Source: Clostridia bacterium | GTDB lineage: Bacteria > Bacillota > Clostridia > Oscillospirales > Acutalibacteraceae | Direction: 5' to 3' | DNA: 63,157 nt | Assembly (NCBI GenBank): GCA_017434855.1 | Contig: JAFRUA010000020.1 | Span: forward strand, 1-63,157 | Shown here: positions 3,066 to 63,157 of the stretch, one piece after another | Layout: each line of letters begins with the position of its first letter | Position numbering within the stretch: the stretch's first letter is position 1 | Notes under the pieces: model-generated | What the model was told of the DNA's origin: nothing | The model's database searches: none | The model's input: the letters and a program-made list of their open reading frames with translations, nothing else | Position numbers and translations under genes: made by a program

Positions 3066-4286
3066 TTATCGCACGCCGTACTTTTCGATAACGTAATCGA
3101 GGTCCTTGTCGCCCCGGCCGGACAGGTTGATCAGCACCGACCCGTGGCCCATCGTCTTGGCCAGTTTCATGGCAAAGGCCACCGCGTGCGAGCTTTCGAT
3201 GGCGGGGATGATGCCCTCCAGCCGCGAAAGTTTGAAGAACGCGTCGATCGTCTCGTAGTCGTCGATGACGTCGTATTTCACGCGGCCGATCTCCTGCAAA
3301 AAGGCGTGTTCCGGCCCGGAGGACGGATAGTCCAGGCCGCTCGCGATGGAATAGACCGGCGCGGGGTTGCCGTTCTCATCCTTCAGCATGATGCTGTTGA
3401 ACCCGTGCATCACGCCCTCGCTGCCGTATTTCAGGCTGGCGGCATGGTCGCCGATCCCGGCGCCGCGCCCCAGCGGCTCCACGCCGTAGATGTCCACGGG
3501 GTCGTTCAAAAAGCCCGCAAACAGGCCCGCCGCGTTGCTGCCGCCGCCCACACAGGCGACGATCGCGTTGGGCAGGTGGCCGGTCATGTCGATGAACTGC
3601 TCGCGCGCCTCGATGCCCACCACGCTTTGAAAATCGCGCACCATCATCGGGAAGGGGTGCGGCCCCAGCACCGACCCGATGCAATAGATCGCGTCGTTAT
3701 ACTCTTTGCTGTACGCCTCAAACGCGGCGTCCACCGCCTCTTTCAGCGTCTGCAGGCCGTGCGTGACCTCCACCACGTTGGCGCCCAGCACCTTCATGCG
3801 CGCCACGTTGGGCGCCTGCTTTTTGATGTCCACCGCGCCCATATAGATGTCGCACGCCAGTCCGAAGTACGCCGCTGCCGTGGCCAGCGCCACGCCGTGC
3901 TGCCCGGCGCCGGTTTCGGCAATGACCTTTTTCTTGCCCATGTACTTGGCAAGCAAAGCCTCGCCCATGCAGTGATTGAGCTTGTGCGCGCCGGAATGGT
4001 TCAGGTCCTCGCGCTTGGCATAAAGCTGCACCCGCCCGCCGAGCGCGTCTGACAGCCGCTCCAGGTGAGAGATCGGCGTCGGCCGGCCCTGAAACTCCCT
4101 GCGGATGCGGCGCAGCTCCGCGATGAACTTGCGCGACTGGCAGATGGAATAATAGGCCTGTGTGATTTCGGCCATCGCGGCCTTCAGCTTGTCGTCCACA
4201 TAGACGCCGCCGTATTTGCCGAAATAGCCGTCGGCGTCGGGATAGTGATTGAAATAGGTGTCAAAGTCAATTCCGTTGCATTGCAT
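3066..4286 (-). CDS. trpB: Tryptophan synthase beta chain (type 1), stand-alone
   Basis: This 406-residue PLP enzyme condenses indole with serine to tryptophan. [13 protein letters not shown] leads to the PLP lysine in [12 protein letters not shown] (K102), then [10 protein letters not shown], the phosphate-binding GGGSNA loop and a C-terminal SGRGDKD motif, all of the TrpB1 type. The ATG at 4286 is chosen because CAGGAGG lies seven bases upstream; eight extra codons could be read from 4310 but have no ribosome site. No trpA or other trp gene lies nearby, so the partner subunit must be elsewhere or the enzyme works alone on free indole. Transcription comes through a tryptophan T-box leader. 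A second, type-2 trpB lies at 36156-37529. Confidence 0.95.
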
Positions 4287-4396
4287 TGTCGGTCCTCCTG
4301 TATCATTCAAGTGATGGGTTTCTTTTGGCCGGACGCCTTCACCATCGTCTTCCGGGTTTCATGCTGCGCCCTCCTTCTTGTCCGTCAAAACAAAAA

Positions 4397-4429
4397 CGCC
4401 CCCAACAGACAACTGCTCTGTCAAGGACG
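4397..4429 (-). terminator. T-box attenuator terminator of trpB
   Basis: On the minus strand a 13-base-pair stem (CGTCCTTGACAGA with TCTGTTGGGGGCG, several G-U pairs) and a seven-base loop is followed by TTTTTGTTTT. Its 5' arm contains the CCTT that would otherwise pair with the AAGG of the T-box, so the two structures exclude each other. Confidence 0.85.
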
Positions 4430-4460
4430 AATCAGACGGATCCGCGGTGCCACCTTGATT

Positions 4461-4621
4461 GGGCACCTCTAAAAACTGCGCGCCGCTCGATCGCGCACAC
4501 CTTTCACCGTCATATTGCCCAAATTATCCTTGAAAGCCGAAAGGATTCCTGCGTCAAAATTATGCAATCTGACGGTAAAATCTGCATCGCGCTCAAACGA
4601 CTTGAGTTTTTAGAGGTGCCC
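4461..4621. mobile_element. MITE-like element with 17-bp terminal inverted repeats
   Basis: This 161-bp element starts with GGGCACCTCTAAAAACT and ends with its exact complement (4605-4621). It is flanked by a direct repeat GATT (4457-4460 and 4622-4625), as expected of a 4-bp target-site duplication. It has no open reading frame large enough for a transposase, so it would need one supplied in trans. A second copy, about 95% identical by eye over 141 bases, begins at 63017 and is cut by the window end. It lies wholly inside the trpB T-box leader, immediately 5' of the T-box sequence on the transcript. The parent transposon family is not known. Confidence 0.85.
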
Positions 4622-4820
4622 GATTCATGGTGCTCCATGCGCTTTGCGGGCACAATCATGCCCCGGCAACTGACGTATGCCCACACGTTGCGGCTTACTC
4701 GGTCTCCCTTTCACCGCACCCCCGGCGGCCCATTGTAACAGCCGTGTCTGCCCGGATTTCAGCGCCCCGGACTCTCTGCAAGGCGTGACTGTTTTTACTC
4801 CCGCGTCATCGGTTTTTTCA

Positions 4821-4849
4821 ATGATAGCATCATTCCCGCTGTTTGTCAA
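4821..4849 (-). promoter_or_regulatory. Promoter of the trpB T-box leader
   Basis: On the minus strand: -35 TTGACA (4844-4849), 17-base spacer, -10 TATCAT (4821-4826). The -35 is a perfect sigma-A match and the spacing is ideal; the leader starts just downstream. Confidence 0.85.
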
Positions 4850-35833: not shown

Positions 35834-35839
35834 ATGCGT

Positions 35840-36106
35840 AAACCGATGAGGAAGAGTGAGTAGGTCACCTCCCCTCCCGCACAGAGAGCTGCCGACGGTG
35901 GGAACGCAGCGGGGAGACGGCGATTGAATGGACTTCCGAGGGCGAACAGAAATGCAGATTTTGCAGAGTATGAAAGCCGGAGCCTGACCCTCCGTCAACA
36001 ACCGTCAGCGTATGACAGTACGCATGAGTGGGTGCGCAAGCACCAAGCCGGGTGGCACCGCAGGATCTGATCCTGTCCCAGCAAACGCTGGGGCAGGTTT
36101 TTGTTT
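35840..36106 (+). promoter_or_regulatory. Tryptophan T-box leader of the type-2 trpB
   Basis: All T-box parts are in order: AGTA-type 5' strand (GAGTGAGTAGG), AGAGAG and GGTGGGAAC in the distal stem I, specifier loop GAATGGA with TGG at 35929-35931, T-box GGGTGGCACCGCAGG at 36050-36064, and an attenuator hairpin at 36072-36097. TGG predicts tRNA-Trp. This leader is intact, unlike that of the other trpB. Confidence 0.93.
36072..36097 (+). terminator. T-box attenuator terminator of trpB2
   Basis: Eleven-base stem CCTGTCCCAGC/GCTGGGGCAGG with an AAAC loop, followed by TTTTTGTTTT. Confidence 0.9.
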
Positions 36107-36155: not shown

Positions 36156-37529
36156 ATGAGCGACAACAAAATCCCGTACAAAATCTATCTGAACGAAAAC
36201 GAAATGCCGAAGGCATGGTACAATGTCCGTGCGGACATGAAAACCAAGCCCGCGCCGCTGCTCAACCCCGGTACCCATCAGCCGATGAAAGCCGAAGAGC
36301 TCTCGCCCGTCTTTTGCGACGAGCTGATCGCGCAGGAGCTGGACAACGACACCGCCTATATCCCCATTCCGGAAGACATCCTCAACTTCTACAAGATGTA
36401 CCGTCCGTCGCCGCTGGTGCGCGCCTATTGCCTGGAAGAAAAGCTCGGCACGCCCGCGAAGATTTACTACAAATTCGAGGGCAACAACACCTCCGGCTCC
36501 CACAAGCTGAACTCCGCCATCGCGCAGGCCTACTACGCAAAGAAGCAGGGCCTCAAGGGCGTCACGACCGAAACCGGCGCCGGCCAGTGGGGCACCGCGC
36601 TGTCCATGGCGTGCTCTTATTTCGGGCTGGACTGCAAGGTCTATATGGTCAAGGTGTCCTATGAACAAAAGCCGTTCCGCCGCGAGGTCATGCGCACCTA
36701 CGGCGCGTCGGTCACGCCGTCCCCGTCGATGGAAACCGCCATCGGCCGCAAGATTCTGGAAGCCCACCCGGGCACGACCGGCTCGCTGGGCTGCGCCATC
36801 AGTGAAGCGGTCGAGGTCGCGACCTCCACGCCCGGCTACCGCTATGTGCTCGGCAGCGTGCTCAATCAGGTGCTGCTGCACCAGAGCGTCATCGGCCTTG
36901 AGACCAAGGCGGCGCTCGACAAGTACGGCATCAAGCCCGACGTCATCATCGGCTGCGCGGGCGGCGGCTCCAACCTCGGCGGCCTGATCTCCCCGTTCAT
37001 GGGTGAAAAGCTGCGCGGCGAGGCGGACTATCAGATCATCGCCGTCGAACCGGCGTCCTGCCCCAGCTTCACCCGCGGCAAGTTTGCCTATGACTTCTGC
37101 GACACGGGCATGGTCTGCCCGCTGGCAAAGATGTACACCCTCGGCAGCAACTTTATTCCCGCGCCGAACCACGCCGGCGGCCTGCGCTATCACGGCATGA
37201 GCAGCATCCTGTCGCAGCTTTATCACGACGGCTATATGGAAGCGATCAGCGTGCCGCAGACCGAGGTCTTTGCCGCGGCGGAGGAGTTCGCCCGGGTGGA
37301 GGGCATCCTGCCCGCGCCGGAAAGCGCCCACGCCATCAAGGCCGCGATCGACATGGCAAAGAAATGCAAAGAGACCGGTGAAGAAAAGACCATCGTCTTC
37401 GGCCTGACCGGCACCGGCTATTTCGACATGGTTGCCTATGAAAAGTATCACGACGGCAAGATGGACGACTATATCCCGACCGACGCAGAGCTGGAAGCAA
37501 GCTTCAAGACTTTGCCGCAGGTCGACTGA
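36156..37529 (+). CDS. trpB2: TrpB2-type tryptophan synthase beta-like enzyme
   Basis: This 457-residue PLP enzyme belongs to the long TrpB2 class: extended N-terminus (IPYKIYLNENEMPKAWYNV), PLP lysine in NNTSGSHKLNSA (K117), TTETGAGQWGTALS, GCAGGGSNLGG, and C-terminal GLTGTGYFDM. TrpB2 uses serine or phosphoserine with indole and works without TrpA in several microbes. The ATG at 36156 follows AAAGGTGG. Control by a tRNA-Trp T-box supports a real role in tryptophan supply, together with or instead of the type-1 trpB at 3066. No other trp gene is nearby. Confidence 0.94.
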   Translation: MSDNKIPYKIYLNENEMPKAWYNVRADMKTKPAPLLNPGTHQPMKAEELSPVFCDELIAQELDNDTAYIPIPEDILNFYKMYRPSPLVRAYCLEEKLGTPAKIYYKFEGNNTSGSHKLNSAIAQAYYAKKQGLKGVTTETGAGQWGTALSMACSYFGLDCKVYMVKVSYEQKPFRREVMRTYGASVTPSPSMETAIGRKILEAHPGTTGSLGCAISEAVEVATSTPGYRYVLGSVLNQVLLHQSVIGLETKAALDKYGIKPDVIIGCAGGGSNLGGLISPFMGEKLRGEADYQIIAVEPASCPSFTRGKFAYDFCDTGMVCPLAKMYTLGSNFIPAPNHAGGLRYHGMSSILSQLYHDGYMEAISVPQTEVFAAAEEFARVEGILPAPESAHAIKAAIDMAKKCKETGEEKTIVFGLTGTGYFDMVAYEKYHDGKMDDYIPTDAELEASFKTLPQVD

Positions 37530-48000: not shown

Positions 48001-48365
48001 AACAAAACGACGGAAAACTGACCGCCGGGATTTGTATGCGCGGCCGAAAAAACGGCGGGCGTCGCCGAATGCAGTTGCCGTTTCAGCGCGGCGCAGATGT
48101 CGCCGCCGGAGTACAGAACGCCGATGCAGGAAGCCTTTGTAATCATTCTGCGCTCCGGTGGTGAAAGGCGCCCGCGACACAGCAGGCAACATAGACACCG
48201 GCGCCGTGATCGCCGAATCAGCCGGCGTGCAAAGACCGGCGAAAAAATTTTTCGTCAGATGTTTGAAAAAGTCCGCAGGAAGCCTTTGTGGCTTTCAAGG
48301 GCTTTTGAGAACAAAATGGCGGAAAATTTGCCGCCGGGATTTGTGCGCAAGGCTGAAGAGGTGAT
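48001..48365. repeat. Imperfect direct repeats related to the MITE
   Basis: Two pieces, 48001-48056 and 48311-48365, share ACAAAA-x-GG/ACGGAAAA...GCCGCCGGGATTTGT, and GCAGGAAGCCTTTGT occurs at 48126 and 48278. The stretch from CGTCAGAT at 48250 through GCAGGAA and GGCTTTCAAGG follows the MITE at 4461/63017 in spacing and sequence but is far more diverged and lacks the terminal repeats. No convincing gene lies in 47874-48435. Confidence 0.6.
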
Positions 48366-60574: not shown

Positions 60575-60838
60575 TAACAGCAAAACGGCTTTGACGGAGA
60601 AGAGTAAGTCCGACGACCGGCGCAGAGAGGGGTGCCACGGCTGCAAGCGCCCTGCCGGGTCCGGGCCCAAGTGCGCTCCCGAGCCGCCGCGGGGAAGGGT
60701 ACCGGCGTACCGCAGTATCCGCGGCCGTTTCCCGCGTTAAGGGCGCGGCCATGTGTCGCCGAGTGAGAAATCAGAGTGGAACCGCGTTTCGACGCCTCTG
60801 TTGCCTTTGCAGCGGGGCGTGTTTTTTTCGGGCGGTCC
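60575..60838 (+). promoter_or_regulatory. Cysteine T-box leader of cysE
   Basis: GAGTAA on the 5' side and CAAGTGCG on the 3' side form a specifier loop closed by GGAG/CTCC; the codon is TGC (60672-60674), for cysteine. AGAGAG and GGCTGCAAGC are the distal stem I signals. The T-box AGTGGAACCGCG is at 60775-60786. The attenuator stem CGCCTC-T-GTTGC/GCAGC-GGGGCG (60793-60829) is followed by TTTTTTT. Uncharged tRNA-Cys would allow cysE expression. Confidence 0.9.
60793..60838 (+). terminator. T-box attenuator terminator of cysE
   Basis: An 11-base-pair stem with one bulged T and a CTTT loop, then a run of seven T's starting at 60832. Confidence 0.85.
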
Positions 60839-63016: not shown

Positions 63017-63157
63017 GGGCACCTCTAAAAACTCGGGTCGTTTGAGCGCGATGCAGATTTTATCGTCAGATTGCATAAATTTGACGCAGGAATCCTCTCG
63101 GCTTTCAAGGAAAATTTGGGCAATATGACGGTGAAAGGTGCGCGCGATCGAGCGGCG
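63017..63157 (+). mobile_element. MITE-like element, second copy, cut by window end
   Basis: It starts with the same GGGCACCTCTAAAAACT terminal repeat and follows the minus-strand reading of 4461-4621 for 141 bases with about seven differences. The right terminal repeat lies beyond the window, so its target duplication cannot be checked. Confidence 0.85.

Follow-up and report, generated by a model that had tools for sequence, protein, structure and literature searches.

A mobile element inserted between Stem III and the antiterminator of a trpB T-box leader

The window, by which we mean the whole 63,157-nt stretch of DNA that was analysed, contains a trpB gene of the TrpB1 type (509.8 bits against NCBIfam TIGR00263, for a cut-off of 392.45) preceded by a tryptophan T-box leader (Table 1). 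The parts of this leader are present and pair as expected: the promoter, stem I, the specifier, Stem III with its RRRxG and AA flanks, the antiterminator and the terminator. The TGG specifier lies inside 4724-4736 and fits the regulated gene, and all ten antiterminator pairs are standard (T-box sequence and antiterminator AAGGTGGCACCGCGG...CGTCCTT), with a G-U pair at the base of helix A2. The original reading, in which the promoter, antiterminator and terminator on the two sides of the element are intact, is borne out. Scans of the sequence find one promoter site (0.6 +/- 0.8 in shuffles) and one terminator (0.8 +/- 1.0 in shuffles); these counts do not exceed the shuffles, so it is their position that counts.

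Table 1. Features of the trpB locus, in window coordinates.
Feature	Position	Strand	Remarks
trpB (TrpB1-type, 406 aa)	3066..4286	-	NCBIfam TIGR00263
Micro-ORF MKPGRRW after the T-box, possible Trp leader peptide	4339..4362	-	
Intrinsic terminator, 13 pairs, then TTTTTGTTTT	4397..4429	-	
Antiterminator: helix A1 AAGG/CCUU, T-box bulge UGGCACC, helix A2	4423..4456	-	
Target duplication copy 2, AAUC in RNA	4457..4460	-	
MITE (family A), 161 bp	4461..4621	.	17-bp perfect terminal inverted repeats
Target duplication copy 1, AAUC in RNA; the entire Stem III-A1 strand	4622..4625	-	
Stem III, CATGG-AGCA-CCATG, then AA	4626..4639	-	motif as in PMC7583486
Stem I, specifier, stem II, stem IIA/B region, ending in AAGCG (RRRxG motif)	4640..4818	-	RF00230 alignment
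Promoter, TTGACA, 17-nt spacer, TATCAT	4821..4849	-	11/12 consensus bases

The leader has the elements of a transcriptional Trp T-box of the RF00230 type (stems I, II, IIA/B and III), namely the promoter, stem I, the TGG specifier, the RRRxG-StemIII-AA motif, the antiterminator with its UGGC bulge and the terminator, but differs from it in that the discriminator is split by 165 nt. The RF00230 match (4420-4818, minus strand) spans the inserted element and scores 58.4 bits (E 3.6e-12) against a gathering score of 93, whereas an element-free trpB leader of the genus (G012:C14:26078-26320) scores 93.0. The trpB T-box was absent from the Rfam scan of the window at the curated threshold, and from the whole-genome scan as well, and was recovered when the whole-window scan was ranked on E-value. 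Interrupted T-box switches can score below, or drop out of, standard model searches. A match to Rfam snoU6-47 (E 0.78) was taken as chance.

The inserted element is 161 bp long and ends in perfect 17-bp inverted repeats (GGGCACCTCTAAAAACT), and it is flanked on both sides by the target duplication GATT (plus strand; AATC in the RNA sense). Size, repeats and duplication had all been noted originally, and the sizes, sequences and coordinates proved correct to the base. The insertion point is the 4-nt strand that joins Stem III to antiterminator helix A1, which the insertion duplicated, and the order in the leader RNA is StemIII-AAUC-element-AAUC-A1. Because the duplication copied the whole joining strand, one copy of it is retained on each side. 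The spacing from Stem III to helix A1 is 169 nt, compared with 4-5 nt in 46 of 50 related leaders, so that 165 nt have been added at this joint; when the flanks are joined through a single AATC they align continuously with the Trp T-box leaders of other species. Stem III, the RRRxG-StemIII-AA motif and the antiterminator together form one compact sensor of tRNA charging, the discriminator, as described in PMC7583486. Measured against that description, the trpB leader is an interrupted rather than a typical T-box, lacking the short Stem III-A1 strand. The element had originally been placed in a linker between stem I and the T-box sequence; that position stands, but the linker is not a neutral one, since the Stem III-A1 strand lies inside the discriminator and is in fact an inner joint of the sensor.

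Fifty homologous leaders, picked by similarity to the trpB leader (at least one genome is counted twice, as L037 and L136), all lack the element, and in each the T-box core follows within a few nucleotides of Stem III. The TGG specifier pattern is found in 44 of them. An automatic caller assigns the Stem III-A1 strand a length of 4 nt in 28 and of 5 nt in 18, and the remaining four look miscalled by eye; 47 of 51 such strands (own leader included) start with AA. Nor were the ends of the element found upstream of TrpB in 80 loci drawn from public genomes (upstream DNA of up to 900 nt, and of less than 50 nt in a few loci). At columns conserved in at least 90% of leaders (about 124), the interrupted leader departs from the consensus at 6; the 50 relatives do so at 0 to 32, so that the T-box has no visible decay by this comparison.

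Within the genus, a query made of the 5' part of the leader has matches in seven genomes out of the 33 besides this one, and all eight leaders read were empty. In the proposed comparison of the same locus in close relatives, the nearest relatives differ by more than the absence of the element: no T-box core was found upstream of trpB in eight of eight relative loci (261 nt examined in G004, up to 650 nt in the others), which comprise the six closest by TrpB identity (92-94%), G029 (90%) and G013 (84%). In G001, G003 and G012 (TrpB identity 90%) and in G024 (82%), the leader does precede trpB. The trpB T-box is thus dispensable in part of the genus.

The 161-bp element is a MITE (family A), with inverted repeats and a target duplication, and is multicopy and mobile. 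At E <= 0.001 the genome gives 53 matches, among them short fragments and hits to either strand of the palindrome. Of the 24 copies that reach 135 nt, 19 come from this genome and 5 from relatives, although some lie at contig ends, where two could be a single copy. The copy in the trpB leader differs from the family consensus by 4 substitutions. Matches to the ends (at most one mismatch) number 47 in this genome and 8 in three others, with none in the remaining 30; the reversed-pattern control gave none in this genome and a single match in each of G021 and G030, so that chance is excluded as the source of the 47. A 4-bp duplication could be seen by eye at five copies (L002, L003, L004, L011 and L015), and none was seen by eye at five others (L006, L007, L017, L018 and L019).

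The same terminal repeat occurs at 13 contig ends, where it is followed by non-MITE sequence and is in every case preceded by AATT. Seven of these ends are of one kind (with an ORF start read as MQFGFFDIENKENRLSKLGD) and six of another, and we infer that the two kinds are both ends of one autonomous IS. An identical 17-nt end lies beside a fragment (85 aa) of an IS5-type transposase in a viral-collection contig (L226), where it belongs to the element of another organism. This fragment matches NF033581 (E 1.4e-10, 41 bits, below the cut-off of 140) and an IS1182 model (E 3.3e-6), and is above the cut-off for Pfam DUF772; used as a single query, it has no match in this genome assembly, in which the complete IS is not assembled. 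The mover of the MITE is probably an IS5-type element. Searches of phages and plasmids gave no match to the MITE, and the IS end was found in no plasmid and no viral contig. An apparent pair of terminal repeats in contig C18 was considered as the autonomous IS and rejected, as no ORF there is transposase-like by eye. Empty sites in 50 of 50 leaders, the target duplication, the multicopy MITE and the matching IS ends strongly support the mobile-element insertion originally proposed, and we regard insertion into the trpB T-box as nearly certain.

The family resembles MITEs, probably those of the IS5 family, in its short size, terminal inverted repeats, 4-bp target duplication, many copies and matching IS ends in the genome, but differs in that its inner hairpin core is common to MITEs with other ends. 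MITE families with very different ends (GGGCACCTCTAAAAAC, TTAAGGCAACACCGCACAA, GTACCCACTGATTAACTC and GTAAACG.TGA.TAAATC) have this core in common, as seen at window 4461-4621 and at L025, L193, L054 and L166. Four sequences compared with family A have 76-82% identity over 46-79 nt of the core, and for the fifth set of ends (L166) the match to the core is one of pattern alone. Three other loci (L228, L240 and L246) are palindromes of about 55 bp with little beyond two family A inverted repeats. Elsewhere in the window, 63017-63157 is another family A copy, cut by the contig end, and 48225-48333 is a family-C-like repeat.

Folding was modelled on a 428-nt transcript, and the values are secondary-structure estimates that leave aside tRNA and tertiary contacts and assume a start site. 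In the model, 124.3 of the 161 nt of the element are paired internally, while its pairing with the leader outside it amounts to 0.0004 nt; the long stem expected from its ends is therefore borne out in silico, in the form of an insulated hairpin. None of 120 dinucleotide shuffles of the element is equally insulated (outside pairing 31.3 nt on average, minimum 6.8). With each structure forced, the ensemble energy of the antiterminator minus that of the terminator is 2.94 kcal/mol with the element and 2.60 without, and the predicted balance therefore barely moves; this gap is itself not special, as shuffled inserts give 3.4 +/- 2.3 kcal/mol (-1.0 to 10.3). The predicted Stem III probability is 0.77, against 0.74 +/- 0.31 for shuffled inserts. 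Reversing the element in place, a single case, leaves about 24 nt paired with the leader and a gap of 3.8 kcal/mol. While the element is still being synthesized, as modelled by folding successive prefixes, at most about 14 nt of it pair upstream and Stem III stays at or above 0.95, except in the last prefix (180 nt from the start of the element), where it drops to 0.63. The element was also considered as a promoter and as an intrinsic terminator, and rejected as a promoter and, for loops of up to 8 nt, as a terminator: the scans found no promoter-like site inside it, the only terminator found with such loops is that of the T-box, and the U5 run of the inverted repeat is followed by AGAGG. A terminator with a long hairpin may still be present.

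A second interrupted T-box precedes a gene that we named thrS by eye from its translation (G000:C39:23837-24207, minus strand, 39 bits, corresponding to L141 3838-4208). Here the loop of Stem III contains a 163-nt hairpin that belongs to a related, family-C-like group of MITEs. The loop is empty in G027 (CCGCATTTTTTGCGG), and G004 and G029 are also without the insert (L155, L183, L161), as by coordinates are the thrS T-boxes of G027:C16, G028:C5, G030:C48 and G032:C22. The site is a run of T, which prevents a clear reading of any target duplication. In the predicted fold, Stem III has a probability of 0 with the insert, compared with 0.42-0.60 without, and the insert pairs 14 nt outside itself, which is below all 40 shuffles (minimum 18.0). 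Since Stem III is predicted to be displaced in thrS, tolerance by insulation would not be general. With trpB added to the nine T-boxes listed in the genome, two of ten carry MITEs, a small number that could be due to chance.

How the interrupted trpB leader behaves is the subject of competing readings. In the one that we favour, to which we give an even chance, the leader is still responsive to tRNA-Trp, with weaker or shifted read-through. The transcribed element would form its own long hairpin, leaving the leader through the two AAUC strands, and would add a helix to the discriminator. With the terminator untouched, termination would remain the default. The specifier and the UGGC bulge would both stay available for pairing with uncharged tRNA-Trp, and Stem III would still dock, at a cost, since its tether runs across the closed base of the hairpin. 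The extra 165 nt would delay the decision and give the tRNA longer on stem I. For continued switching we count the perfect target duplication and inverted repeats, the 4 substitutions that separate this copy from its family consensus, the insulated fold and the lack of decay, although the insertion may be too young for decay even if it is deleterious. Counted against it are the 4-5 nt spacing of the relatives, which suggests a strong spacing constraint; the indispensability of Stem III for binding the tRNA 3' end, as reported in PMC7583486; the unremarkable energy balance and Stem III probability among shuffles; the outside pairing of the reversed element and of the partly made element in the folds above; and the predicted displacement of Stem III in thrS. 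A broader proposal, which we consider unlikely, is that new T-box domains can arise from MITEs, two T-boxes of one genome (trpB and thrS) having taken hairpin MITEs into the discriminator, at or next to Stem III, and that the trpB switch works across a 161-nt hairpin because the duplication copies the joining strand.

The chief alternative, which we judge somewhat less probable than continued switching, is that separation of Stem III from helix A1 abolishes tRNA-dependent antitermination, leaving trpB1 near its terminated basal level. The near-invariant spacing, the indispensable Stem III (PMC7583486) and the predicted disturbance of Stem III by the related thrS insert all favour this outcome. 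Such a loss might be tolerable through a second TrpB with its own Trp T-box, together with external Trp or indole. A TrpB2-type gene (36156-37526) indeed lies behind an uninterrupted T-box (35837-36083, plus strand, specifier read by eye as TGG), no match to trpA was found in the genome, which is rated 97.9% complete, and the eight relative trpB loci with no T-box core in the upstream DNA examined, by showing this control to be dispensable in part of the genus, keep the alternative alive. Neither the T-box nor trpB is decayed, however, and the in-silico balance is nearly unchanged, both of which speak for a leader that still switches.

RNase III prefers long double strands, and the long hairpin predicted here might be cut (or might cause pausing) so that stem I and the tRNA are parted from the antiterminator; we find this improbable, as the termination decision may precede the cut. 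It is very unlikely that two leaders were misjoined through a repeat during assembly. Repeats do trouble assembly, and many contigs of this genome end in MITE copies or IS ends, but both flanks fit a single Trp T-box (the TGG specifier on one side, the UGGC bulge and trpB on the other), the target duplications match, the joined flanks align continuously with relatives, and the other Trp T-box noticed by eye among those listed is uninterrupted. That the element is a normal domain of this T-box class is refuted by the 50 empty homologues, as the comparison of relatives was meant to decide, and by the target duplication, with element copies at many unrelated sites and the 80 TrpB loci (within the upstream DNA given above) pointing the same way.

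Among known systems, the closest printed case that we met is a pneumococcal BOX element located between two T-boxes of the trp operon (PMC3049150), where the authors judged the flanking riboswitches still functional on the basis of RNA-seq. Both are mobile hairpin repeats transcribed within a trp T-box leader, but the BOX lies between two T-boxes, whereas the MITE lies inside one, in the sensor. The ‘mobile attenuators’ of PMC2965389 bring their own terminator and change the attenuation of the downstream gene; the trpB MITE is likewise mobile, but interrupts an existing T-box. T-boxes with extra discriminator sequence have been described, and their structure and function are called unknown in PMC7583486; the trpB leader also has extra sequence, but here its origin is a MITE and empty sites are known. 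We met no case of a mobile element inside a T-box in the open-licence literature (PMC2965389, PMC3049150 and PMC10969869 included), which does not imply absence in print. The trpB leader is a natural test, with 165 nt at a joint of the sensor, the rest recognizable and 50 element-free homologues, and its function would show whether the short length of the joint is required. Mobile hairpins might also account for some unexplained T-box insertions.

Several further T-box features were observed. A T-box at 60582-60802 (plus strand) lies upstream of a gene that is serine acetyltransferase-like by eye, and both it and the T-box at 35837-36083 are under the Rfam gathering score. An asnB-like T-box (by eye; L184, G021:C65:4737-5129) is 393 nt long and has extra AT-rich sequence compared with that of G020 (L186). 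A literature search found no paper related to a TKRWR motif, which belongs to micro-ORFs of the trpB leaders. An ATG micro-ORF with a Trp codon lies between the T-box terminator and trpB in 38 of 51 T-box-bearing leaders (L064-L138), and 35 of 51 have [KR]RW by eye, mostly as M..LLTKRWR, the interrupted leader having MKPGRRW. These micro-ORFs look like a second, peptide-based layer of control.
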